From Nocardioides sp. (lineage in GTDB: Bacteria; Actinomycetota; Actinomycetes; Propionibacteriales; Nocardioidaceae): 10,613 nt of DNA. The notes under the pieces were generated by a model. The model had not been told where the DNA came from, did no database searches, and saw nothing but the letters and a program-made list of their open reading frames with translations. Below, piece by piece: positions 1 through 10,613 of the stretch. Where the stretch lies: the NCBI GenBank assembly GCA_021166815.1, contig JAJPEO010000365.1, positions 1-10,613 of the forward strand, read 5' to 3'. The translations under genes and the position numbers were made by a program. The stretch's first letter is position 1. Every line of letters begins with the position of its first letter.

Positions 1-106
1 CCCACTGACCGTTGAGGTTGCTCCAGGTGTCCCTGACCAGCTGCGGACGAGGATGCTCCGGCAGGGGCAAGTCCGCGTCCACGACGTCGGACCAGTGCGT
101 CCTCAC
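1..106 (-). CDS. Glycoside hydrolase family 2 protein, N-terminal fragment (runs off left edge)
   Basis: Only the first 35 codons are inside the window. The minus strand reads from a GTG at 106 through M-R-T-H-W-S-D-V-V-D, then E-H-P-R-P-Q-L-V-R-D-T-W-S-N-L-N-G-Q-W at residues 17-35. The pattern PRPQLxR...W..LNGxW is the typical opening of GH2 enzymes (beta-galactosidase, beta-glucuronidase and relatives), just ahead of the jelly-roll sugar-binding domain. The GTG overlaps the TGA of the upstream MFS gene in a GTGA tetranucleotide, so translation is probably coupled and transporter and hydrolase form one operon. The likely role is hydrolysis of a glycoside imported by that transporter; the substrate cannot be told. 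No catalytic residue lies in the window. A GTG at codon 9 is a possible alternative start. The family call rests on one short motif. Confidence 0.68.
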   Translation of the reverse strand, partial: MRTHWSDVVDADLPLPEHPRPQLVRDTWSNLNGQW

Positions 107-1404
107 GAGCCCACGCCCACGACGCTGCGTTCGGCCGGCGCCTTCCTCAGCAGGCGCCACGGCACCAGCACCAGCAGGGCGACGAGGGCTGCGGTGGGGA
201 AGATCCAGGGCGTGGGGACGACCTTGGTGACCCCGAGGTCGACGTACGTCTCGTCGGCACCGGCGATGACGGCGGCGCCGATGAAGGGGCCCACCACCAT
301 GGGCACGAGCACGGCGGCGACCATGCGCAGGCCCTGGACCTCTCCGGCGCGATCAGGCGGGGTGTGGTTGCGCACGGTGGCCGAGATCGAGGCGATCGCG
401 AGCATCATCCCGGACATCGTGACGATGCCCGCCCCGATCACCGGCAGCATCCCGCGCGCCCAGAACATCAGGAGCAGGCCGACGGCGAAGATCCCCACCG
501 CCGGACCGACCCCGTTGACGGCGCCGATGCGGTCCAGCACCCTGCCGCCCAGCATGCTGAGCACCGCCGCGCCGATCAGGACGGACGCCAGCACGATGGC
601 GTAGCCCTCGATGTCGAGGTAGCGCTGGACGTAGATGATCAGGTAGGGCAGGAACACCTGGGTGCTGACGCCCAGCACCGCCCACGTGCCGAGCGCCAGG
701 TAGAGCGCCGGGCGGTGGCGGACCGTGCTGGGGCGCAGGCCGTCCAGCACCGAGGAGAGATAGGTGCCGCTGGGCCGGGGGAGGGGTGCCTCGCGTACGC
801 CGAACCAGGCCACGACACCGACGAGGGTGGTCGTCACGCCGACGACGGCGAAGAAGGTGGTCCAGTGGCCCGCACGGGTGAGTGGGTCGAGCGCGCCGAA
901 CACGAGGAGCATGGCCAGGAGCGGCATGGTCGCGAGGACGCCGTCGACCCGGCCACGGTTGCCGGTCGTCGTCGTGTCGGTCACCCAGGCGTTGAACGCC
1001 GCGTCGTTGGCCGTCGCCCCGAGCGCACTCATCACGCAGTCGAGGACGATGATCGCGACCACGGCCACGACCACCGCGTCGAGGGCGGGAGCCAGGCTCG
1101 CCGCGGCGTCGACTCCGACCAGTCCGAAGGCCGCGGTGGCGAGCCCCCACGTGACGTAGCCGAGCGCGATGAACTCGCGGCGTCGGCCGCGACGGTCGGA
1201 GGCCGAGCCGGCCAGAAGCGTGGCGACCGTGGCGGCGACTGCGCTGCTGGCCACGAGCAGCGCCAGCACCGTGGGGGAGTCGGTGATCGTCTCGTGGACG
1301 AAGACGTTGAGGTACATGTTCTCGACCGCCCACGCCACCTGGCCGGTGAGCCCGAGCAGCACCACCCAGGCCCAGGTGCGGCCGCCCACGGCGTGTGTCG
1401 ACAT
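103..1404 (-). CDS. MFS transporter, probable sugar/glycoside importer
   Basis: This is a 433-residue integral membrane protein with about 12 hydrophobic segments, the usual length for the major facilitator superfamily. MFS motif A is seen after the second helix as GSASDRRGRRR (residues 66-76). The charged stretch R-N-H-T-P-P-D-R-A-G-E-V-Q-G late in the second half is typical of a cytoplasmic loop in these carriers. The start is the ATG at 1404: it has no Shine-Dalgarno, but a TAGGGT box lies 7 nt upstream, which suits leaderless translation. The stop overlaps the start of a GH2 glycosidase gene. MFS-GH2 pairs commonly belong to the GPH/SLC45-like sugar carriers, so uptake of an oligosaccharide or glycoside is inferred; export of a compound cannot be excluded. 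It is divergent from cobT, 90 nt away, and probably unrelated to it. Confidence 0.85.
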   Translation of the reverse strand: MSTHAVGGRTWAWVVLLGLTGQVAWAVENMYLNVFVHETITDSPTVLALLVASSAVAATVATLLAGSASDRRGRRREFIALGYVTWGLATAAFGLVGVDAAASLAPALDAVVVAVVAIIVLDCVMSALGATANDAAFNAWVTDTTTTGNRGRVDGVLATMPLLAMLLVFGALDPLTRAGHWTTFFAVVGVTTTLVGVVAWFGVREAPLPRPSGTYLSSVLDGLRPSTVRHRPALYLALGTWAVLGVSTQVFLPYLIIYVQRYLDIEGYAIVLASVLIGAAVLSMLGGRVLDRIGAVNGVGPAVGIFAVGLLLMFWARGMLPVIGAGIVTMSGMMLAIASISATVRNHTPPDRAGEVQGLRMVAAVLVPMVVGPFIGAAVIAGADETYVDLGVTKVVPTPWIFPTAALVALLVLVPWRLLRKAPAERSVVGVGS

Positions 1405-1410
1405 GCGGGA

Positions 1411-1416
1411 ACCCTA
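1411..1416 (-). promoter_or_regulatory. -10 box (TAGGGT) of a probable leaderless promoter for the MFS operon
   Basis: On the minus strand a TAGGGT hexamer ends 6 nt before the A of the MFS ATG at 1404. That is the usual distance from a -10 box to a transcription start, so the mRNA would begin at or next to the start codon. No SD-like purine run precedes the ATG, which agrees. No good -35 match is seen 16-18 nt further upstream. Confidence 0.5.
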
Positions 1417-1454
1417 GTGGCGGACGCCGTTCTCTGGAGGCAGTTGCCGAGCCC

Positions 1455-1460
1455 TAGGCT
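1455..1460 (+). promoter_or_regulatory. -10 box (TAGGCT) candidate for cobT-cobS
   Basis: TAGGCT fits the actinobacterial TANNNT -10 pattern and would give a start near 1467, leaving a leader of about 28 nt with a GAGGAG SD at 1484-1489. The -35 region is poor. The leader is far too short to hold a cobalamin riboswitch. Confidence 0.35.
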
Positions 1461-1494
1461 GGCCGGGCCCGCGACCGACGCACGAGGAGCACAG

Positions 1495-2532
1495 ATGGCC
1501 GTCGTCCCACCCTCCCCGACCGCGCACCGCATTGCCGCGGAGCGGCTCGCGGGACTGGCGACGCCGCCGGGTGCGCTGGGGCGCCTGGGCGATCTCGGTG
1601 TGTGGCTGTGCGCGACCCAGGACCGCGTTCCCCCACGAGCCGTGGAGCAGGCGCGCCTGGTGATCTTCGCCGGGGACCACGGCGTGGCCCGGCACGGGGT
1701 CTCTGCCTTCCCGCCGGCCATCACCGGCGCGATGGTGCGGACGTTCCTCGCCGGACGTGCGGGCGTCAACGCCCTGGCGCGCGCCAACGGGGTGGCGGTA
1801 CGAGTCCTCGACCTCGGGGTGGACGAGGACTTCGCGGACCTCGATTCCGCGGCCAGGGCCGACCTCCAGCGGCACAAGATCAGGCGCGGCAGCGGTGCCA
1901 TCCACGTCGAGGACGCGCTCACGTCCGACCAGGCTCGCGATGCCGTCGCCGCAGGCCGTGCGGTGGCTCGGGAGGAGGTCGCCGCCGGGGCCGACCTGCT
2001 CCTGAGCGGTGACATGGGTATCGGCAACACGACGCCCGCCGCCGCCCTGGTCGCCGCCGCCCTGGGACTGCCCGCGTCCGAGGTCGTCGGCCGGGGCACG
2101 GGCATCGACGACGAGGCACTGCGGCACAAGACCGAGGTGGTCGACCAGGCGCTGCGCCGGCTCGGCGGCCGAGCAAGTGATCCGCTGCAGACGCTGGCCT
2201 CGGTGGGGAGTGCTGACCTCGCCGCCACCACCGGCTACCTCGCCGAGGCGGCCGTGCTCGGTGTCCCGGTGCTCCTCGACGGTCTGATGAGCGTGGCGAG
2301 CGCGCTGACCGCCGACCGGCTCGAGCCCGGGGCGGCGGCGTGGTTCGCCGCCGGACACCGTTCCACCGAGCCCGCGCAGTCCCTGGCCCTCGAGAAGCTC
2401 GGGCTGGTGCCCCTCCTCGACCTCGACCTGCGCCTGGGCGAGGGGTCGGGCGCGGTGGCCGCCGTCCCCCTCGTGCGCAGTGCGACGGCCCTGCTGCGTG
2501 ACGTCGCGCTCATCTCCGAGATCGCTCCGTGA
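1495..2532 (+). CDS. cobT: Nicotinate-nucleotide:dimethylbenzimidazole phosphoribosyltransferase CobT
   Basis: CobT transfers phosphoribose from nicotinate mononucleotide to 5,6-dimethylbenzimidazole. The product is alpha-ribazole phosphate, the activated lower ligand of cobalamin; the enzyme is cytosolic. The protein has 345 residues, close to the family's usual 350. Hallmarks are GDHGVARHGVSAFP (from residue 60), GDMGIGNTTPAAAL (from 172) and the C-terminal LDGLMSVASAL...GHRSTEP. L-G-E-G-S-G-A at 314-320 holds Glu316, matching the catalytic Glu317 of the Salmonella enzyme. The frame is open far upstream, but that part is antisense to the MFS gene. The ATG at 1495 is chosen because a GAGGAG SD lies at 1484-1489 and family homology starts there. 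The stop overlaps the cobS start (GTGA), so the two are probably co-translated. Confidence 0.96.
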   Translation: MAVVPPSPTAHRIAAERLAGLATPPGALGRLGDLGVWLCATQDRVPPRAVEQARLVIFAGDHGVARHGVSAFPPAITGAMVRTFLAGRAGVNALARANGVAVRVLDLGVDEDFADLDSAARADLQRHKIRRGSGAIHVEDALTSDQARDAVAAGRAVAREEVAAGADLLLSGDMGIGNTTPAAALVAAALGLPASEVVGRGTGIDDEALRHKTEVVDQALRRLGGRASDPLQTLASVGSADLAATTGYLAEAAVLGVPVLLDGLMSVASALTADRLEPGAAAWFAAGHRSTEPAQSLALEKLGLVPLLDLDLRLGEGSGAVAAVPLVRSATALLRDVALISEIAP

Positions 2533-3302
2533 CCCCAGGCGCGCTGTCCTCGGGCTGGCGCCTGGCCGTCGGCACGCTGACCGCCATCCCCGTACGTCCG
2601 CCGGCACTGGTCGACAGGCATGCGGCCACGTGGGCCGTACGCCTCGCCCCGGTGGCCGCCCTGGCCCTGGCGGTCCCGGCGGCGCTCCTCGCGTGGGCCA
2701 TGACGGTCACGATGGGGACCCCGGCCCTGGTCGGCGCCCTGGTCCTGGTGGGCGCGGTGGCCTGGGGCACCCGTGGCCTGCACCTGGACGGCCTCTCCGA
2801 CACCGCTGACGGCCTGGCGTCCTCGTTCGACCGGCACCGTTCGCTGGAGGTCATGAAGACCGGTGTCGCCGGTCCGGCTGGGGTGGCGACCACCGTCCTC
2901 GTCCTCGGCCTCCAGGTCGCGGGCGCGGCCAGCGTGCTGCAGCGCCCGCACGGCGCCTGGCTCGTCGCCGCCGCCGTGTGCGTCTCCCGACTGGGTCTGG
3001 CCGTCTGCTGTGTCGACGGGGTCGAGGCCGCTCGACCCGACGGCCTGGGTCGCCTGTTCACCTCCACCCAACCCCGGCGGGCGGTGGTCCTCCTGGGGGC
3101 GGTCGGCGGCCTGGTCGTCGCGGCGGGCGCCGAGCTGACCGGACTGGACTGGTGGCGCGGCCTGCTGGCGGTGGCGGCGGGCGGCCTCGTGGTGGTGCTG
3201 CTCGTACGCCGAGCCTCGCGCCGCTTCGGCGGTGTGACCGGTGACGTGTTCGGAGCCGCGATCGAGATCGCTCTCGCCGCAATGCTGGTGCTGCTGGCCT
3301 GA
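2529..3302 (+). CDS. cobS: Adenosylcobinamide-GDP ribazoletransferase (cobalamin synthase) CobS
   Basis: CobS joins adenosylcobinamide-GDP and alpha-ribazole (or its phosphate) to give adenosylcobalamin (phosphate), with release of GMP. It is a polytopic inner-membrane enzyme. The 257-residue protein starts at a GTG overlapping the cobT stop. The family signature HLDGLSDTADGL lies at residues 85-96, with its Asp residues likely binding metal. It is followed by S-F-D-R-H-R-S-L-E-V-M-K-T-G, the second conserved cytoplasmic motif. The remainder is mostly hydrophobic segments rich in Ala, Val, Leu and Gly, as expected. It takes the products of CobT and CobU, encoded next to it. It ends 4 nt from the convergent cobU stop. 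Confidence 0.95.
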   Translation: MTPGALSSGWRLAVGTLTAIPVRPPALVDRHAATWAVRLAPVAALALAVPAALLAWAMTVTMGTPALVGALVLVGAVAWGTRGLHLDGLSDTADGLASSFDRHRSLEVMKTGVAGPAGVATTVLVLGLQVAGAASVLQRPHGAWLVAAAVCVSRLGLAVCCVDGVEAARPDGLGRLFTSTQPRRAVVLLGAVGGLVVAAGAELTGLDWWRGLLAVAAGGLVVVLLVRRASRRFGGVTGDVFGAAIEIALAAMLVLLA

Positions 3303-3306
3303 CGGG

Positions 3307-3840
3307 TCAGATCACGAGGACGCGACCTGCCACCACGAGGTGCACCTCGTCGCAGGTGGCGGCCACGGCTTGGTTGAGCGTGCCGAGGAGGTCTCGGAAG
3401 AGCCGCCCCGAGCGGTGCTCCGGGACGACGCCGAGCCCGACCTCGTTGGTGACCACGACCACGTCGGCCGTCGCTGCGCGCAGGGCCTCCACCACCCGGG
3501 TCGTCTCCTCGGCGAACGCCGACTCCACCTCACTGACCGCGACGTCCCACAGATGCCGGTCGTCCATGAACCGGGCGAGCCACGTGCCGAGGCAGTCCAC
3601 CAGGAGCGGGTGAGTCGCAGCGAGGCCGAGGGCGTGCGGGAGGTCGGCGGTCTCGACGGTCTCCCAGTGCGGTGAACGGGACGCCCGGTGACGGTCCACC
3701 CGCGCCCGCCAGTCGTCGTCATCCTCTGCGACCGGTGTCGGGCCGAGCGCGACGTAGCGCACCGGGTCGGTGGCGGACAGCAGGGACTCGGCGTGCGTGG
3801 ACTTCCCCGAGCGCACACCACCGGTCACGAGAGTCTTCAT
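3307..3840 (-). CDS. cobU: Bifunctional adenosylcobinamide kinase / adenosylcobinamide-phosphate guanylyltransferase CobU (CobP)
   Basis: CobU phosphorylates adenosylcobinamide and then transfers GMP to it, making the adenosylcobinamide-GDP used by CobS. The 177-residue protein has its P-loop at the N terminus, G-G-V-R-S-G-K-S (residues 7-14). R-H-R-A-S-R-S-P-H-W-E-T-V-E-T follows; His51 is the candidate guanylylated histidine by analogy with Salmonella His46. The C-terminal family block is T-N-E-V-G-L-G-V-V-P-E-H-R-S-G-R, then L-N-Q-A-V-A and the E-V-H-L-V-V-A-G end. The frame is open to an ATG at 3975, but the ATG at 3838-3840 has an AGGAAG SD and gives the family's normal start at the P-loop strand. 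The gene is convergent with cobT-cobS, so it is expressed separately. Confidence 0.94.
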   Translation of the reverse strand: MKTLVTGGVRSGKSTHAESLLSATDPVRYVALGPTPVAEDDDDWRARVDRHRASRSPHWETVETADLPHALGLAATHPLLVDCLGTWLARFMDDRHLWDVAVSEVESAFAEETTRVVEALRAATADVVVVTNEVGLGVVPEHRSGRLFRDLLGTLNQAVAATCDEVHLVVAGRVLVI

Positions 3841-4013
3841 GGCTTCCTGTCGCGACGACGGCACGGGACGACACCATCCAACCCGACTCCCGTGGGAGCC
3901 GGCGGCCGGATACGCTGCGAGTGGCCAACCCGACGGCGAAAAGGCACTGCAGCACCCATGGACGGAAGTCTCCACAGCCCTTCCCCAGGGGTCCCGCGGC
4001 GGGCATCGACCAC
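3841..4013. other. Divergent intergenic region between cobU and the first CNNM gene
   Basis: These 173 nt must hold the promoters of both genes. On the plus strand a TACGCT (3911-3916) fits TANNNT. On the minus strand the best -10 candidate is only TTGGAT (3876-3881), a weak match. A short CTCCC/GGGAG inverted repeat with a 2-nt centre lies at 3887-3898 and could be a small operator. I could not align a cobalamin riboswitch or a magnesium M-box here. Confidence 0.3.
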
Positions 4014-5360
4014 ATGACCGCGGGCCTGCTCCTCGGCGTCTCGCTGCTGCTCATCGCCGCGTGCGGGGTCTTCGTCGCCGCGGAGTTCGCGTTCGTCACG
4101 GTGGACCGGACCGCGGTGAACCGGGCAGCCCGGGACGGCGACCGTCGGGCGGCCGGCGTGCAGCGAGCGTTGCGCAGCCTGTCGACCCAGCTCTCCGGGG
4201 CCCAGGTCGGGATCACGGTCACCAACCTGGCGATCGGCTTCCTGGCCGAGCCGGCCATCGCGGACCTCATCCGGCCCGGCCTGACGACGTGGGGGGTCGA
4301 CGAGGACCTCGTCGGACCGCTCGCCCTCGCGCTGGGCCTGCTGGTCGGCACGGTGCTGACCATGGTCTTCGGCGAGATGGTCCCCAAGAACCTCGCGATC
4401 GCTCGCCCCCTCGAGACCGCCCGCGCGACCCAGGCCCCGATGCGGGCGTTCACGACCGCGATGACCTGGCCGATCGCCCTCCTCAACGGGTCGGCGAACG
4501 CCATCGTGCGCCGCATGGGCATCGAGCCCCAGGAGGAGCTGCGCTCGGCCCGCAGCCTCGAGGAGCTGGACTCGCTGGTGCAGCGTTCAGCCCACCAGGG
4601 CACGCTCGACGCCGACACCGCCGAGCTGGTCGAGCGCTCCGTGGAGTTCGGGCAGCGCACCGCCGGGGAGATCATGACGCCCCGTGTGCGGGCGACGACG
4701 GTCACCGACACCGATCGGGCCTCCCAGGTGATCGAGGTGGCGCGCCAGACAGGTCATTCGCGCTTCCCCGTGCTGGGCGCAGACGAGTCGGTGGTCGGGA
4801 CCGTCCACGTCAAGCACGCGGTGGCCGTACCCGTCCACGAGCGCGCCGCCACCAGGGTCAAGCACATCATGGGCAAGCCGACCGTCGTCCCGGACAGCCT
4901 GCGTCTCGACCCGCTGCTGGGGATCCTGCGCAGCGAGGGCTTCCAGATGGCGATCGTCCTCGACGAGTACGGCGGCCACGCGGGAATCGTCACCCTCGAG
5001 GACGTCGTGGAGGAGATCGTCGGCGACATCTCCGACGAGCACGACCGGCTGGGAGCCCGGGCACGCCAACGCCGCGACGGCACGTGGTCGCTCTCCGGCC
5101 TGCTGCGCCCCGACGAGGTCGAGGCAGCGACGGGGGTGGCCCTGCCGGAGCACGAGGACTACGACACCGTCGCCGGCCTGGTCCTGCGCGAGCTGGGCAG
5201 GATGGCCGAGGCGGGGGACCGGGTCGAAGTGCTCGTCCGGGGCAGTGCGAGGCCACAGCGGCCGGCGTCGCTGGTGACGCTGACCGTCGAGCGGATGGAG
5301 GGGCTGCGCATCGACCGGGTCATGCTGCGCGTGGTGACCCAGGGGGGAGGGGCCTCATGA
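4014..5360 (+). CDS. CNNM/CBS-domain membrane protein with CorC_HlyC domain (hemolysin C/CorC-like)
   Basis: The 448-residue protein has three parts. The first is an N-terminal CNNM (formerly DUF21) membrane domain, residues 1-170. It contains AAEFAFVTV near 22-30, SGAQVGITVTNLAIGFLAEP at 61-80 and FGEMVPKNLAIARP at 119-132. A CBS pair follows at about 218-345, opening with E-I-M-T-P-R-V and closing with VLDEYGGHAGIVTLEDVVEE. A CorC_HlyC domain occupies about 355-440. Family members are linked to Mg2+/Co2+ transport or efflux, with CBS domains sensing nucleotides; the older name hemolysin is misleading. Length and domains fit mycobacterial Rv1842c. The ATG at 4014 begins directly with the first membrane helix, though its SD is weak. 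An in-frame GTG at 3921, 5 nt after a TACGCT box, is an alternative. The stop overlaps the next gene (ATGA). Confidence 0.9.
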   Translation: MTAGLLLGVSLLLIAACGVFVAAEFAFVTVDRTAVNRAARDGDRRAAGVQRALRSLSTQLSGAQVGITVTNLAIGFLAEPAIADLIRPGLTTWGVDEDLVGPLALALGLLVGTVLTMVFGEMVPKNLAIARPLETARATQAPMRAFTTAMTWPIALLNGSANAIVRRMGIEPQEELRSARSLEELDSLVQRSAHQGTLDADTAELVERSVEFGQRTAGEIMTPRVRATTVTDTDRASQVIEVARQTGHSRFPVLGADESVVGTVHVKHAVAVPVHERAATRVKHIMGKPTVVPDSLRLDPLLGILRSEGFQMAIVLDEYGGHAGIVTLEDVVEEIVGDISDEHDRLGARARQRRDGTWSLSGLLRPDEVEAATGVALPEHEDYDTVAGLVLRELGRMAEAGDRVEVLVRGSARPQRPASLVTLTVERMEGLRIDRVMLRVVTQGGGAS

Positions 5361-6421
5361 GCGCAGAGCTGTGGGCCGTCGTCCTCGCCGTCGTGCTGCT
5401 GGCGCTGAACGCGTTCTTCGTGGGGGCCGAGTTCGCGCTGCTGTCCGCCCGCCGGTCGCAGATCGAGCCGCGCGCGCAGGCCGGGTCACGGGCGGCAGCG
5501 ACCACCTTGCGCGCCATGGAGAAGGTGTCCCTGGTGATGGCCGGTGCCCAGCTGGGCATCACCGTCTGCTCGCTGGGGCTGGGCGCGGTGGGTGAGCCTG
5601 CCGTCGCCCACCTGATCGAGCCCGGGCTCGGCGCCCTCGCAGTGCCGGACCGGTTGCTGCACCCGATCGCCTTCGTGATCGCGATGACGGTGGTGGTCTA
5701 CCTCCACGTCGTGCTGGGCGAGATGGTCCCGAAGAACATCGCGCTGGCCGGCCCTGACCGCGCCGCGATCCTGCTCGGGCCGCCCATGATGGTGTTCGTC
5801 ACGCTCCTGCGACCGATCATCGCGCTGCTCAACCTCGTCGCCAACCTGGTCCTGCGCCTCGTCGGCGTGCGGGCCAAGGACGAGGTCAGCTCGAGCTTCA
5901 CGCGCGAGGAGGTGGCGGCGCTGGTCGAGGAGTCCCTCGGGGAGGGTCTCATCGAGGCCGACCAGTACGACCGTCTCAGCGGCGCCCTGGGGTTCACCGA
6001 GAAGACGGTGAGCTCGGTCCTCATGCCGACCGACGGGCTCACCACCGTTGCTCCGGGCGCCACGGGAGCCGACGTCGAGGACTTGTGCGCGGCCACCGGC
6101 TTCAGCCGCTTCCCGGTGGTGGACGACGACCACACCCTGCTCGGCTACCTCCACGTCAAGGACGTCCTCGAGCCCGACGAGGAGCGCCGTGCCCGCCCCG
6201 TCGACGCCAAGTGGGTACGCCCGCTGGCCTCGGTGCGGCCTGACGACCTGCTGCACTACGCCCTCGAGACGTTGCAGGCCAAGGGCGCGCACATGGCCCG
6301 CGTGGTGGGCGAGGACGGGGCCGTCCAGGGAATCGTGACTCTCGAGGACGTGCTCGAGGAGCTGGTCGGCGAGATTCGAGATGCAGCCCACCACGACGTG
6401 TCCGCCCTCGATGCTGGTTGA
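5357..6421 (+). CDS. CNNM/CBS-domain membrane protein, short paralogue lacking CorC_HlyC domain
   Basis: The protein has 354 residues. The CNNM membrane domain covers about 1-172, with FVGAEFALLSARRSQIE at 21-37, MAGAQLGITVCSLGLGAVGE at 61-80 and LGEMVPKNIALAGP at 120-133. A CBS pair follows at about 218-340 and ends in GAVQGIVTLEDVLEELVGEI. Translation stops shortly afterwards, so the C-terminal CorC_HlyC domain of its upstream neighbour is absent. The size matches mycobacterial Rv1841c, which pairs with Rv1842c in the same order. The ATG overlaps the upstream stop by 4 nt and has a GGGGGGAGG SD at 5342-5350, so both proteins are likely made together and may form a heteromer. A role in divalent cation (Mg2+) balance is inferred from the family. 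Confidence 0.9.
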   Translation: MSAELWAVVLAVVLLALNAFFVGAEFALLSARRSQIEPRAQAGSRAAATTLRAMEKVSLVMAGAQLGITVCSLGLGAVGEPAVAHLIEPGLGALAVPDRLLHPIAFVIAMTVVVYLHVVLGEMVPKNIALAGPDRAAILLGPPMMVFVTLLRPIIALLNLVANLVLRLVGVRAKDEVSSSFTREEVAALVEESLGEGLIEADQYDRLSGALGFTEKTVSSVLMPTDGLTTVAPGATGADVEDLCAATGFSRFPVVDDDHTLLGYLHVKDVLEPDEERRARPVDAKWVRPLASVRPDDLLHYALETLQAKGAHMARVVGEDGAVQGIVTLEDVLEELVGEIRDAAHHDVSALDAG

Positions 6422-6441: not shown

Positions 6442-7047
6442 GTGTCAGAGGAGTCCATGAGCGCGCGCGTGTGGACCGTGCCCAACATCGTGAGCATGGT
6501 CCGCCTCGCCGGCGTCCCACTCTTCCTCTGGCTCGTGCTGGGTCCCGAGCAGGACGTGCTCGCCCTCGCGGTCCTGATGGTCGCCGGACTCACCGACTGG
6601 CTGGACGGCTGGCTGGCACGCAGGCTCGACCAGCGCTCCAACCTGGGCCAGATCCTCGACCCCGTCGCCGACCGGCTCTACATCCTGGCCGTCGTCGTGG
6701 GGCTGCTCCTGCGCGACATCATCCCCTGGTGGGTCGCGGTGGCGCTGCCGTTGCGCGACCTGCTCCTCTGGGTGCTCGTTCCCTTCCTGCGCACCCGCGG
6801 ATACAGCGCCCTGCCCGTGCACTTCCTCGGCAAGGCTGCGACGTTCAACCTGCTCTACGCCTTCCCGCTCCTGTTGCTCGGCGAGGGCACCGGCGTGCTC
6901 CCGACCCTGGCCAGCGTCTTCGGCTGGGCGTTCGCCTGGTGGGGGATCTGCCTCTACTGGTGGGCCGGGGTGCTCTACGCCTGGCAGGTCCGCACCCTGC
7001 TGCGCGAGACCGATCGAGCGATCCCGGCAGAGGACAGCTCCCCGTGA
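6442..7047 (+). CDS. pgsA: CDP-alcohol phosphatidyltransferase, PgsA-like (phosphatidylglycerophosphate or cardiolipin synthase)
   Basis: The enzyme displaces CMP from CDP-diacylglycerol with an alcohol acceptor at the membrane. The family signature DxxDGxxAR(x8)GxxxDxxxD is complete: D52, D55-G56, A59-R60, G69, D73 and D77, counted from the GTG at 6442. Several hydrophobic helices follow, and the total is about 201 residues, normal for the family. The position just before DUF881-sbp-DUF881 matches mycobacterial pgsA2 (Rv1822). The acceptor, glycerol-3-phosphate or phosphatidylglycerol, cannot be settled from the sequence. Starts in the same frame are TTG 6418 (overlapping the CNNM stop), ATG 6436, GTG 6442 and ATG 6457. 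I chose GTG 6442 because a TAGGGT box sits 7 nt upstream. ATG 6457 has GAGGAG only 3 nt away. The stop overlaps the next gene by GTGA. Confidence 0.88.
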   Translation: MSEESMSARVWTVPNIVSMVRLAGVPLFLWLVLGPEQDVLALAVLMVAGLTDWLDGWLARRLDQRSNLGQILDPVADRLYILAVVVGLLLRDIIPWWVAVALPLRDLLLWVLVPFLRTRGYSALPVHFLGKAATFNLLYAFPLLLLGEGTGVLPTLASVFGWAFAWWGICLYWWAGVLYAWQVRTLLRETDRAIPAEDSSP

Positions 7048-7913
7048 ACCGCGCCCCGAACGAGCCGCTGCCCACTCACGTCACCACGCCGTTGCTGACG
7101 CTGATCACGACGCGCTCGCTCGACGAGGACTACGCACACGTGGCATCCCGGAAGGCGGCCGTGGGTACTGAGCGGCCCGAGCGGAAAGGTCCGCGATGGA
7201 CCACCGTGGCGGCGGTCCTGGTCCTCGGCCTGCTCACGAGCGTCGTTGTCGCCCAGACCTCACGCGAGGCCGCCACCCACGAGCTCAGCCGCGCCGCGCT
7301 GGGCAAGCAGATCGGCATCGAACGCGATCGCGTCGCGTCCCTGCAGGACGAGGTCGCGTCGCTGGTCGACGCCAACCAGGCCACCGCCGCGCGCAACGCC
7401 ACCCTGGAGAACCAGCTCGAGAACCTCCAGGCCGGCGTCCAGCGGCTCGGTGTCCTCACGGGCTTCACCGCCGTGCACGGCGAGGGCGTGCGGATCTCCG
7501 TCGACAACCCCGAGTCCGCGGACAGCACCACCGAGATCCGCGACGAGGACCTGGCCACGCTGGTCGACGGCCTGTGGGCCGCCGGGGCAGAGGCAGTGTC
7601 CATCGACGGCGAGCGGGTCAACGCGCTCGGCGGCATCCGCAACATCAGCCGCGCCGTGCACGTCAACGGCCGCCCCGTGACCGCTCCCTACCTCGTCGTC
7701 GCGATCGGCGACCAGCGCACGCTGCAGGCTCGCCTGCTCGAGACGAGCCAGGGCCAGGAGTGGTTCGCCCGGGTCAACGGGCTCAGTTTCCGCTACACGG
7801 CACAGAACGTGGATGATGTCGAGGTGCCTGCAGCGCCGTTGCGGGCCCTCCGCCACACGTCCCAGATGAAGAGGCCCGGTGGCCGCACCGGGGGAGAGGA
7901 GACGGCCCCGTGA
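7044..7913 (+). CDS. DUF881 membrane-anchored coiled-coil protein (first copy)
   Basis: The protein has 289 residues and starts at a GTG that overlaps the pgsA-like stop. Its layout is a cytosolic N terminus of about 50 residues, one membrane helix at about 52-71, a coiled coil at about 75-135 (charged heptads such as ELSRAALGKQIGIERDRVASLQDEV) and a DUF881 domain at about 136-255. That domain includes GEGVRISVDNP, LATLVDGLWAAGAEAVSIDG and the stretch around IGDQRTLQARLLETSQGQEW. A Pro/Gly-rich tail ends it. The domain would face outside the membrane. It corresponds by order to Rv1823 and to the YlxW/YlxX family next to Bacillus division genes. No enzymatic motif is visible and the function is unknown. 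It probably acts as a membrane scaffold with Sbp and the second DUF881 protein. Confidence 0.88.
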   Translation: MNRAPNEPLPTHVTTPLLTLITTRSLDEDYAHVASRKAAVGTERPERKGPRWTTVAAVLVLGLLTSVVVAQTSREAATHELSRAALGKQIGIERDRVASLQDEVASLVDANQATAARNATLENQLENLQAGVQRLGVLTGFTAVHGEGVRISVDNPESADSTTEIRDEDLATLVDGLWAAGAEAVSIDGERVNALGGIRNISRAVHVNGRPVTAPYLVVAIGDQRTLQARLLETSQGQEWFARVNGLSFRYTAQNVDDVEVPAAPLRALRHTSQMKRPGGRTGGEETAP

Positions 7914-8242
7914 TCGCTGCGCTCGGACTGCTGCTGGGGATCGTCGCCGGATTCGTGTTCGCTCCCGAGGTGCCCCTCGGGCTGCAGCCGTATCTCCCGA
8001 TCGCGGTGGTGGCCGCACTGGACGCGGTGTTCGGTGGCTTCCGAGCCTTCCTCGACGGGATCTTCGACGACAAGGTCTTCGTGATCTCCTTCGTCTCCAA
8101 CGTCGTCATCGCCGCCGCGATCGTCTACCTCGGCGACCACCTCGGCGTCGGTGGCCAGCTCACCACCGGCGTGATCGTCGTGCTGGGCATCCGCATCTTC
8201 GCCAACGTGGCCGCGATCCGGAGGCACGTGTTCCATGCCTGA
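7910..8242 (+). CDS. sbp: Small basic protein Sbp (DUF1290), integral membrane protein
   Basis: The 110-residue protein starts at a GTG overlapping the upstream stop (GTGA), with GGGGAGAGGAG at 7890-7900 as SD. It has three or four hydrophobic segments (about 2-18, 27-42, 58-75 and 86-100). The DUF1290 hallmarks are Y-L-P-I-A-V-V-A-A-L-D-A-V-F-G-G-F-R-A, then F-V-I-S-F-V-S-N-V-V-I-A-A, and R-I-F-A-N-V near the end, with a short basic tail RRHVFHA. The family is named after Bacillus subtilis Sbp, encoded between DUF881 genes and ftsA-ftsZ. It has no established biochemical role. Its place between two DUF881 genes, overlapping both, argues that the three products form one membrane complex. Confidence 0.92.
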   Translation: MIAALGLLLGIVAGFVFAPEVPLGLQPYLPIAVVAALDAVFGGFRAFLDGIFDDKVFVISFVSNVVIAAAIVYLGDHLGVGGQLTTGVIVVLGIRIFANVAAIRRHVFHA

Positions 8243-8966
8243 GGAGTCCGGTCGCCAGCGGCTGCGCAGCGCCCTGACCAGCCCGTCACGGTCGCAGCTC
8301 GTCGTGGGCGTGCTGCTCGCTGTCCTCGGCTTCGCCTTCGTGGTCCAGGTCGAGGACTCCCAGCGCAACGACACCTACGCCGGCCTGCGTGAGTCCGAGC
8401 TCATCGAGGTGCTGGACGGCCTCACCGGTACGGCCGAGCGTGCCCGACGCGAGATCGACCGGCTCGAGGCTGCCCAGGGCGACCTGCAGTCCGAGACCCG
8501 GGCGCGCGAGGCGGCGCTCTCCGAGGCCGAGCAGCGCGCACGTGCCCTCAACATCCTGGCCGGTCTCGTTCCGGTGGCCGGCCCAGGGATCCGGGTCACG
8601 ATCAACGAGACGACCGGTCGGGTGAGCGTGGGTGCCCTCCTGGACGTCGTCCAGGAGCTCCGCACCGCCGGCGCGGAGGCCATGGAGTTCAACAACTCGC
8701 TGCGCGTGGTCGCGCAGAGCTCGTTCGAGTCCGTCCCGGGAGGCATCGAGCTGGACGGCCAGCTGCTCGAGGCACCGTACGTGCTCGAGGTGATCGGCGA
8801 CCCGCACGTGCTCAAGACGGGGCTCCTGTTCCGTACGGGCCCGGTGGAGACCCTGGAGACCTACGACGGCGCCACGGTCGAGATCACCGAGCTCGACCGC
8901 GTGGAGATCCAGAGCGTCCGCGACGCGGAGCGGCCGGAGCATGCAGAGCCGGTCGAGGCGCAGTAG
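8235..8966 (+). CDS. DUF881 membrane-anchored coiled-coil protein (second copy)
   Basis: The protein has 243 residues. Its ATG lies 8 nt inside the end of sbp, with GGAGG at 8220-8224 as SD. The order is a short basic cytosolic N terminus (about 20 residues), a membrane helix at about 21-39, a coiled coil at about 60-105 (REIDRLEAAQGDLQSETRAR) and a DUF881 domain at about 106-225. The domain includes GPGIRVTINETTG, LLDVVQELRTAGAEAMEFNN and APYVLEVIGDPHVLKTGL. An acidic tail ends it. It corresponds to Rv1825. Compared with the first copy it lacks the long cytosolic N terminus, so the two are not interchangeable. Function is unknown; a cell-envelope or division role is inferred from the gene neighbourhood in other phyla. 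Confidence 0.88.
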   Translation: MPEESGRQRLRSALTSPSRSQLVVGVLLAVLGFAFVVQVEDSQRNDTYAGLRESELIEVLDGLTGTAERARREIDRLEAAQGDLQSETRAREAALSEAEQRARALNILAGLVPVAGPGIRVTINETTGRVSVGALLDVVQELRTAGAEAMEFNNSLRVVAQSSFESVPGGIELDGQLLEAPYVLEVIGDPHVLKTGLLFRTGPVETLETYDGATVEITELDRVEIQSVRDAERPEHAEPVEAQ

Positions 8967-9002: not shown

Positions 9003-9386
9003 GTGTTTCCAGAGGACCTGAAGTACACCGCCGAGCACGAGTGGGTGCGCGGTTCCGGCGACGCCGACGCCGTGCGGGTCGGCATCACCGACTACGCCCA
9101 GGACGCGCTCGGCGACATCGTCTACGTGTCCCTGCCGCAGGTGGGCGACCGTGTCACCAGCGGCGAGGCGTGCGGTGAGCTCGAGTCGACGAAGTCGGTC
9201 AGCGACATCTACGCGCCGCTCACCGGGGAGGTCGTCGCCGTCAACGACGCCCTCGACGCCACTCCCGAGCTGGTCAACAACGATCCCTACGAGGCGGGGT
9301 GGCTCTTCGAGGTGCGTCCGGACGACGCCTCGTCGGTCGACGGGCTCATGGACGCCGCGGCGTACCAGGCGACCCTCGACGGCTGA
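9003..9386 (+). CDS. gcvH: Glycine cleavage system H protein (lipoyl carrier)
   Basis: GcvH carries the aminomethyl group on a lipoyl arm between the P, T and L proteins of the glycine cleavage complex; it can also serve in lipoate transfer. The 127-residue protein is a full lipoyl/biotinyl-type domain: YTAEHEWVR near the start, G-I-T-D-Y-A-Q-D-A-L-G-D-I-V-Y-V, and the lipoylation site ESTKSVSDIYAP with Lys64. N-N-D-P-Y-E-A-G-W-L at the end is also typical. The GTG at 9003 is preceded by a strong AGGAGG SD (8989-8994). No other glycine cleavage gene is in the window. It lies 36 nt after the second DUF881 gene, so it may be read from the same operon. The order matches Rv1826 before garA. Confidence 0.97.
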   Translation: MFPEDLKYTAEHEWVRGSGDADAVRVGITDYAQDALGDIVYVSLPQVGDRVTSGEACGELESTKSVSDIYAPLTGEVVAVNDALDATPELVNNDPYEAGWLFEVRPDDASSVDGLMDAAAYQATLDG

Positions 9387-9477: not shown

Positions 9478-9990
9478 ATGCCGTTCTGCACCGCCTGTGG
9501 CAGGCAGAACCCCGACGACGCCCGATTCTGCGCCCAGTGCGGCACCCGTCTCGTCGGAGCCGACGCCGGTGAGCCGACGCCGGCCGAGAGCACCGCGACG
9601 ATCACGTTCGGCGCCCCCGAGCGGGTCGACACCTCGGACCGTCAGCTCAGCCCGGTCGACGCAGCCGCGGTCGACGCACTTCCCGAGGGGCACGCCCTGC
9701 TGGTCGTGCAGCGTGGACCCGGCGCCGGTAGCCGATTCCTGCTCGACGCGGACCTGATCGGCGCGGGCAGGCACCCCGAGAGCGAGATCTTCCTCGACGA
9801 CGTGACCGTGTCGCGACGCCATGCGGAGTTCCGCCGTGCCGGGCGCACCTTCACCGTCAGTGACGTCGGCAGCCTCAACGGCACCTACGTCAACCGCGAC
9901 CGGATCGACTCCGTCGAGCTGACCGACGGCGACGAGGTGCAGATCGGCAAGTACCGACTGGTGTTCTTCGCCTCCCACCCCGGATCGTGA
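9478..9990 (+). CDS. garA: GarA/OdhI-type FHA-domain regulator with N-terminal zinc ribbon
   Basis: The protein has 170 residues. The N terminus is a zinc ribbon with C4-x2-C7 and C18-x2-C21. A linker with E-S-T-A-T-I-T-F (37-44) follows. The FHA domain covers about 72-165 and is very close to mycobacterial GarA, with GRHPESEIFLDDVTVSRRH (G97, R98, S112, R113, H115) and GSLNGTYVNR (N134), the phosphothreonine-binding residues. GarA and OdhI bind and inhibit 2-oxoglutarate dehydrogenase and act on glutamate enzymes. A Ser/Thr kinase switches them off by phosphorylating an N-terminal ETTS motif, which the FHA domain then binds. Exact ETTS is absent here; ESTATITF is the candidate substitute. 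Gene order (Rv1827) supports orthology. The start has a strong SD (GGAGG 9468-9472), and the stop overlaps the next gene. Confidence 0.9.
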   Translation: MPFCTACGRQNPDDARFCAQCGTRLVGADAGEPTPAESTATITFGAPERVDTSDRQLSPVDAAAVDALPEGHALLVVQRGPGAGSRFLLDADLIGAGRHPESEIFLDDVTVSRRHAEFRRAGRTFTVSDVGSLNGTYVNRDRIDSVELTDGDEVQIGKYRLVFFASHPGS

Positions 9991-10613
9991 CCGTGGGCAC
10001 GTCGACCTCCTCGGGATCCTCGGCGCGGCCTCGTGCGGCACGGTTCAACATCGGTCAGGTCCTGGAGCAGCTGCGCCCCGACTTCGCCGGGGTGACCATC
10101 TCCAAGATCCGCTTCCTGGAGGACCAGGGCCTGATCAAGCCGGAACGGACGCCCTCGGGGTACCGGAAGTTCTCCGAGGCCGACGTCGACCGGCTGCGCT
10201 ACATCCTGCGGATGCAGCGTGACCACTACCTCCCCCACAAGGTGATCGGCGAGCACCTCGACGCGATCGACCGAGGCCTGGAGCCGCCGGCCATCGAGGG
10301 TGTCGTGCCCACGGTCCCCAAGGTCGCCCTGGCCGAGGACGGGGTTCCCTCTCCGGAGTCGTTCCGCCACACCCGCGACGTCAGGATGTCGCGGCGAGAG
10401 CTCATCAAGATCGCCGAGATCTCCGAGGACCTGCTCGCCCAGCTCGAGCAGTACGGCCTCGTCGCACCCAAGCCAGGCACCGACCACTACGACCCCGACG
10501 CACTCCTCGTGGCCCGCACTGCTCGAGAGCTTGCGGACTTCGGCATCGAGCCGCGTCACCTGCGGGCCTTCCGCACCGCTGCCGATCGCGAGATTGGTCT
10601 CGTGGAGCAGATC
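9987..10613 (+). CDS. ftsR: MerR-family transcriptional regulator, FtsR/Rv1828-type (runs off right edge)
   Basis: 209 codons are present with no stop before the window ends; relatives have about 250 residues. It starts at a GTG overlapping the garA stop (GTGA); GTG 9993 is an alternative. After a Ser-rich N terminus of about 20 residues comes a winged-helix MerR domain. It includes FNIGQVLEQLRPDFAGVTIS, then KIRFLEDQGLIKPERTPSGY, then RKFSEADVDRLRYILRMQRD and HYLPHKVIGEHLDAID. A second helical region follows, starting near M-S-R-R-E-L-I-K-I-A and continuing through Y-D-P-D-A-L-L-V-A-R-T-A-R-E-L. This domain order and the garA neighbour match Rv1828. Its Corynebacterium homologue FtsR has been described as an activator of ftsZ, so control of cell division is a likely role. 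It may also control garA through the leader inverted repeat. Confidence 0.88.
   Translation, partial: MTVGTSTSSGSSARPRAARFNIGQVLEQLRPDFAGVTISKIRFLEDQGLIKPERTPSGYRKFSEADVDRLRYILRMQRDHYLPHKVIGEHLDAIDRGLEPPAIEGVVPTVPKVALAEDGVPSPESFRHTRDVRMSRRELIKIAEISEDLLAQLEQYGLVAPKPGTDHYDPDALLVARTARELADFGIEPRHLRAFRTAADREIGLVEQI

Follow-up and report, generated by a model that had tools for sequence, protein, structure and literature searches.

What do two DUF881 proteins and the small DUF1290 protein Sbp, encoded side by side in the genome of Nocardioides sp., do for the cell, and do they do it together? The genes lie on a stretch of 10,613 nt (contig JAJPEO010000365.1 of assembly GCA_021166815.1), the whole of which we call the window; the module and the neighbors listed with it are all on the plus strand. 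DUF881 and Sbp are widespread families with no established function. The module comprises Sbp and two adjacent co-directional DUF881 genes: DUF881-A (7044..7913, GTG start), YlxX-like by its position directly before Sbp, the Sbp gene (7910..8242, GTG start), and DUF881-B (8235..8966, ATG start), hereafter A, Sbp, and B. Family PF05949 matches A at residues 132-263 (E-value 5.9e-34, 117.5 bits) and B at residues 102-238 (2.1e-30, 105.9 bits; gathering cut-off 25), and PF06947 matches Sbp (2.5e-34, 117.7 bits, cut-off 24.4). The end of A shares 4 nt with the start of Sbp (GTGA at 7910), and the end of Sbp shares 8 nt with B (8235-8242). The same trio with the same two overlaps had been described in an original prediction made from the sequence alone, and both the open reading frames and the Pfam matches bear this out. 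A further 4-nt overlap (GTGA at 7044) joins A to the upstream gene clsA, and overlapping starts run along the whole chain clsA-A-Sbp-B. With moderate confidence, we propose that A, Sbp, and B would form an obligate hetero-oligomeric membrane complex belonging to the envelope and division machinery.

The gene content of related bacteria carries most of this argument. The survey of both families took in two overlapping samples, one of 296 phylum genomes and one of 296 class genomes, the latter requested at 90% completeness. In the phylum, 56 genomes have both families, none has Sbp only, one has DUF881 only, and 239 have neither; the corresponding numbers for the class are 179, 0, 2, and 115. 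Fisher's exact p-values, uncorrected for kinship, are about 4e-60 and 2e-81, respectively. Counted by genus, Sbp is present in 56/105, and so is DUF881. Bacillus subtilis, included as a control genome, has both. The original prediction had named families frequently occurring without each other as evidence against a common module; the phylum-wide counts do not refute such a module, as Sbp never occurs without DUF881. Two class genomes with DUF881 and no Sbp (G473 and G523) are assemblies of at least 1200 contigs in which, judging by hit positions and locus lengths, the contig breaks off immediately before the B domain. We ruled them out as genuine cases, since they represent contig breaks next to B. 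The single DUF881 match without Sbp in the phylum sample comes from an assembly of 320 contigs (G183), in which the module may lie in a gap. A DUF881 gene is also located amid insertion elements on a plasmid of Alkalihalophilus pseudofirmus (L152:3977-4690); the 8.7 kb shown carry no Sbp annotation.

Loss of the module within one genus is clean. In G367 and G381, the matches to ClsA and GcvH, the product of the gene following the module, are only 158 and 126 nt apart, respectively, and in G535, from the same genus, A, Sbp, and B lie between them. A second genus provides another such pair, with the module absent from G308 and present in G421.

A third DUF881 gene, unlinked to the module, allows adjacency to be separated from mutual dependence. 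In the genome from which the window comes, this gene is divergent from a gene of the CrgA family. According to PMC4255298, CrgA is a septation protein and a binding partner of division proteins. Among the first 30 DUF881 matches listed, 24 could be compared with a listed CrgA position, and inspection by eye placed DUF881 and CrgA on opposite strands, 0.35-0.57 kb apart, in all 24. Among the 117 class genomes lacking Sbp, 115 have no DUF881 anywhere and hence no third copy, and CrgA is retained in 114 of these 115, showing no association with Sbp (p 1.0). At the crgA locus, DUF881 is missing from G381 and present in same-genus G535; for G367, no DUF881 match is listed anywhere in the genome. 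Absence of the unlinked, crgA-side DUF881 from the same genomes that lack the module is the strongest evidence that these proteins work together. Along with the near-perfect co-occurrence, it turns a guess from gene neighborhood into a testable claim of mutual need.

Several details of the third copies can be added. In locus L002 (1189-2477), which belongs to the window's own genome, the third DUF881 gene starts 2 nt from the gene of a divergent 150-aa CrgA-family protein. Of the 16 genomes in the window's genus, 14 have two CrgA matches, possibly from separate parts of a single gene. The clostridium Acetoanaerobium noterae also has a third DUF881 gene (L147:1243-3382), located 22 nt before an MGDG/UgtP-type (diacylglycerol-glycosyltransferase-type) gene. 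The literature searched contained nothing connecting Rv0012 and crgA.

In 110 further, distinct loci (L004-L033 and L064-L143), DUF881 is found upstream of Sbp in 110 and downstream in 107, and such flanking argues that the arrangement is not due to chance. In the three downstream misses, B is outside the fetched DNA (L024), or the contig ends 1.5 kb (L065) or 0.4 kb (L098) past Sbp. The tightness of gene coupling was assessed mainly in 80 named loci. This set consists of the 80 best matches among at least 318 relatives of the window's Sbp and leans toward near kin. A shares 4 nt with Sbp in 62 of the 80, and the gap between them is zero or negative in 85 of the 110 distinct loci. For A, a start giving a 4-nt overlap with clsA is possible in 54 of the 72 loci having ClsA. 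At the Sbp-B junction, when any ATG or GTG in the B frame is allowed, a -4 start is possible in 37/78 loci, compared with about 25/78 expected for an Sbp end independent of the B frame (from 44 and 44 of 78), and a -8 start in 9/78. The overlap of YlxX and Sbp in A. noterae is also 4 nt.

The two DUF881 proteins of a module differ from each other throughout. Profiles of A and B were applied to 231 loci with Sbp, which include 227 full modules and 206 distinct triples. The A profile matched upstream and the B profile downstream of Sbp in all 227 full modules, by margins no smaller than 101 and 58 bits in the 99 loci fetched later. In four of these 99, A is at least 90% identical to a member of the profile set; the remaining 95, with A below that level, all follow the same pattern. 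The suggestion that the arms are non-identical has thus held for every full module. In the phylogenetic tree, the actinobacterial B proteins (45 sequences) and the third copies (16 sequences) have clades of their own, both with support 100. The best tree keeps four Bacillota sequences together (support 91) and places them between A and B. Grouping of YlxW with B was not rejected (AU p 0.29; the test warned that replicates were too few). The constrained searches were fast ones, and the one forcing the Bacillota clade was disregarded because its tree was poorer than that of the free search, which contains this clade anyway. We treat the equivalence of YlxW to B and of YlxX to A as tentative.

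Arm A is also distinguished by its N-terminal tail, in which the window has the motif LLTLITTRSLDEDY (residues 17-30, 7092..7133) ahead of the transmembrane (TM) helix. The pattern [LIVM][LIVM]x5-9[LIVMP]Dxx[YF] before the TM helix occurs in 118/206 distinct A proteins and in 0/205 distinct B proteins; it is also absent from the third copies (0/17, the whole open frame scanned). It is found in A from 56/78 named loci and from 58/95 further distinct ones. This motif is a feature of the class and probably binds a cytoplasmic partner.

A and B share one architecture. Each has one strongly hydrophobic stretch near the N-terminus, which corresponds to a single predicted TM helix (residues ~52-70 in A, following the predicted cytoplasmic tail, and ~21-39 in B, following a short tail), and each continues with a putative coiled coil and a C-terminal DUF881 domain. 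In profile searches with DUF881 proteins, the region after the TM helix matches coiled coils (including GCN4, FtsB, and ZapB) with weak E-values. One clearly related solved structure exists, 3gmg, a domain of Rv1825 (E-values 4.3e-23 for B and 1.6e-9 for A). The DUF881 domain of both arms would face outside, because basic residues precede the helix (the positive-inside rule).

Sbp has four hydrophobic peaks in an alignment of 221 distinct sequences, in agreement with a small membrane protein of four predicted helices. In 26 actinobacterial and clostridial sequences, the invariant residues are G10, G14, Y28, A35, D38, G42, F57, N64, A68, G75, D76, G79, F97, N99, I103, R104, and R105, with R45 and R95 nearly so. 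The polar ones among them, D38, N64, D76, N99, R104, and R105, suggest that the helices enclose a functional interior. No relative of Sbp was detected among solved structures (best E-value 0.21). Pfam matches of Sbp to FUSC_2 (10 of 26 members, best E-value 0.002) and to holins were weak and judged to be due to chance. Two metagenomic sequences with Sbp and DUF881 in one frame (P0053 and P0070) were considered as fusions that would prove contact; the C-terminus of Sbp is cut or altered in both, and they were not counted, being likelier frameshift or assembly products. Neither were P0179 and P0208, in which only a C-terminal piece of A precedes Sbp.

Covariation between the subunits was analyzed by a mean-field method for the 206 distinct triples (about 164 effective sequences) and compared with ten within-cluster shuffles; as one cluster contains 98 sequences, kinship is only partly removed. 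For Sbp-B, the maximum z is 7.8 versus 4.4-6.8 in the shuffles, and six of the top 10 pairs involve B residues 18-56 versus one to four. Pairs above z 4 outnumber those in the shuffles in both pairwise comparisons (27 vs. 2-9 and 30 vs. 3-9), which may reflect kinship. A joint run on the whole trio gave z above 7 for every pair (A-Sbp, Sbp-B, and A-B; unshuffled). These data are suggestive of a contact between Sbp and B, and of nothing more.

The arrangement that would best accommodate these observations is as follows. Sbp would be the integral membrane subunit, its four helices enclosing a conserved polar interior, and it may be the membrane core, as the original prediction has it. A and B would be different single-pass arms, the coiled coils of which raise the DUF881 domains into the wall zone, and the tail motif of A would probably bind a cytoplasmic partner. 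Most likely, the complex would be a scaffold where the envelope grows or the septum forms, coupling factors of the cytoplasm and of the membrane lipids to proteins outside that bind peptidoglycan or belong to the divisome. In actinomycetes, the third, crgA-side DUF881 arm would belong to the same functional unit. A bolder version, which we offer only tentatively, is that in actinomycetes one Sbp serves three paralogous arms (A, B, and the crgA-side protein) as a septal scaffold with exchangeable arms, which would join a cardiolipin-rich membrane, a cytoplasmic partner at the LLxxxxxxxLDxxY tail of A, and outer peptidoglycan-binding proteins; the module would then be a widespread Gram-positive division subsystem that was lost whole several times. 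Parts of the proposal are open to experiment, namely the tail motif of A and the polar residues of Sbp, and the natural losses within one genus offer material for comparison.

Several observations weigh against an obligate complex of the division machinery. No Sbp was detected in 117/296 class genomes; the module is dispensable and not a core part of the divisome, and its absence from many complete genomes implies that it is accessory or replaceable. In the window, it adjoins ftsR and not fts structural genes. Of the 115 module-less genomes, 103 retain ClsA, and therefore the lipid link is mainly positional. The tail pattern is nearly missing from the first loci of the phylum survey (2/29). 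In the covariation analysis, the enrichment in the TM region of B stands out in the top 10 pairs only and fades among the top 20 (8 vs. 4-8) and top 50 (18 vs. 10-17), and the maximum z for A-Sbp, 6.2, is within the shuffled range of 4.2-6.4. The literature searched, which was mainly open-access, yielded no functional study of the module and no actinobacterial localization or phenotype. The tie to septum or envelope growth proposed in the original prediction gains from the midcell positions of YlxW and YlxX fusions in Clostridioides difficile, as reported in PMC12548448, and finds no actinobacterial localization to match.

Genomic neighbors bear on how the module should be placed among cellular functions. 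The gene directly upstream in the window (6445..7047) encodes a CDP-alcohol phosphatidyltransferase family protein (PF01066, 1.8e-37) that scores 279.2 bits with the ClsA model NF053678 (cut-off 240) versus 89.5 bits with the pgsA model (cut-off 109.1). On the other side are genes that we regard as context outside the complex: gcvH (9003..9386; PF01597, 1.7e-42), a gene for an OdhI/GarA-like FHA protein with an N-terminal zinc ribbon (9478..9990; PF00498, 2.3e-19), and a gene for an FtsR-type MerR regulator (9987..10613) that continues past the window end (NF050798 TF_FtsR_Actino, 248.5 bits, cut-off 150). The FHA protein obtains 185.6 bits with the OdhI model, under its cut-off of 200. Among the named loci (a number of them truncated), ClsA is a neighbor in 72/80, FHA in 76/80, and GcvH in 55/80. 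The original prediction had placed the mycobacterial families beside a phospholipid synthase and an FtsR-type regulator; in the window, the regulator is present, and the synthase is better described as cardiolipin synthase.

The prominence of clsA raises the possibility that Sbp and its arms move, sense, or sort anionic lipids together with cardiolipin synthase, any effect on division being secondary. The frequent association with ClsA, the possible 4-nt coupling of the two starts, and the invariant charged and polar residues in the predicted helices of Sbp are all consistent with such a role. So are the glycolipid-type neighbor of the third DUF881 gene in A. noterae and the fact that, of the 14 class genomes with no ClsA match, 12 have no module either (p 4e-4). 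PMC8348161 adds that C. difficile DivIVA is attracted by cardiolipin membranes. However, ClsA persists where the module has gone; it was detected at E <= 1e-50 in 282/296 class genomes (198 over the curated cut-off) irrespective of the module, and we rejected it as an obligate partner. The A. noterae copies sit in a murein and division cluster, and peptidoglycan-binding proteins follow B in most of the deeper-branching loci considered below. We regard a primary lipid function as unlikely.

These deeper-branching loci, 12 in number, were chosen by hand among survey hits in other branches of the phylum and analyzed together with long flanking stretches. Eight of them have, next after B, a gene for a protein with VanW and PG_binding_4 domains, and three have gcvH there; in one locus, a D-Ala-D-Ala carboxypeptidase gene lies ~0.9 kb after B. 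The VanW/PG_binding_4 gene is directly after B in L265 (6028-7881), L266-L270, L273, and L274, and its product has a G5 domain except in L268. This protein is a good lead as a candidate outer partner of the arms. In L265, an IS605 OrfB/TnpB-type gene (9712-10905) lies directly upstream of DUF881-A.

The carboxypeptidase and the VanW/PG-binding neighbors would also suit a wall scaffold working in elongation or at the pole, in the manner of MreC and MreD, rather than at the septum. Such a scaffold would have a similar layout: MreC crosses the membrane once and combines a coiled coil with an outer domain, and MreD is a small multi-pass protein. No MreC or MreD Pfam match was found for the window proteins, nor among the families (up to 25) listed for two member alignments, and the neighbors of the module (DivIB, FtsZ, CrgA, and FtsR) point to division. 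YlxW and YlxX are at midcell in C. difficile, although the same source places MreC and MreD there too (PMC12548448). An elongation- or pole-specific role seems to us distinctly improbable.

Mere operonic hitch-hiking, with the genes co-occurring through an adjacency that lets one deletion take them all and without any common complex, is very improbable, since the unlinked crgA-side DUF881 is missing from the same genomes while crgA remains, and the set is kept between phyla despite a different gene order.

A membrane scaffold of envelope growth or septation thus remains our preferred reading. In the rest of the window, positions 3975-6421, directly upstream of clsA, contain two overlapping CNNM/CBS paralogs, which are present in 7/80 named loci. 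Positions 103-3975 contain cobalamin genes (DBI_PRT/CobT, CobS, and CobU) and an MFS transporter gene; no cobalamin riboswitch above the Rfam threshold was found in the window. Rfam, tRNA, and promoter/terminator scans gave no matches, and neither did a viral-contig scan.

Comparison with known systems shows that the window holds an ordinary member of a known group. Both families, the actinobacterial operon, and the Bacillota operon have been described. Compared with the literature searched, several points are apparently new: the counts of co-occurrence, the finding that the crgA-side arm is absent along with the module, the tail motif of A, the overlap of A with clsA, and VanW as a neighbor. 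One close system is the Rv1822-Rv1825 type operon of mycobacteria, compared here through the 3gmg structure of the Rv1825 domain; PMC3317503 reports an actinobacterial operon with pgsA2, rv1823, and rv1825, and the literature searched gave no functional work on these genes.

The YlxW-YlxX-Sbp system of Bacillota, including B. subtilis, likewise consists of two DUF881 proteins and one Sbp from the same two Pfam families. There, Sbp is the last gene and the module is part of the division cluster, whereas in the window Sbp is in the middle and the surroundings are clsA and gcvH-FHA-ftsR. The original prediction had placed these families beside divIB and ftsA-ftsZ in B. subtilis. A position beside divIB and ftsZ is what we observe in A. 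noterae, with the order divIB-ylxW-ylxX-sbp-ftsZ preceded by murF-mraY-murD-ftsW-murG (these five named by reading the sequences), and a B. subtilis operon is documented in PMC6827917; such placement between divIB and ftsZ is not seen in the window. The idea of one module conserved across phyla stands for the gene set; the order differs (DUF881-DUF881-Sbp vs. DUF881-Sbp-DUF881), and a third, unlinked arm has to be added. As a separate observation, record L144 (NZ_CP154629.1; 2.63 Mb) is classified as plasmid pTPELB2, yet it contains the murein and division cluster with ftsZ and looks like a mislabeled chromosome.

The general layout proposed here is comparable, though not by descent, to those of MreC-MreD and FtsQ-FtsL-FtsB. 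MreC-MreD has a single arm, in contrast to the two or three different arms of the present system. FtsQ-FtsL-FtsB resembles the window arms in its single-pass coiled coils, and the FtsB match mentioned above is a low-complexity resemblance. We know of no counterpart in that complex to the DUF881 outer domain or to Sbp. DivIB is a separate neighbor of the module in A. noterae.

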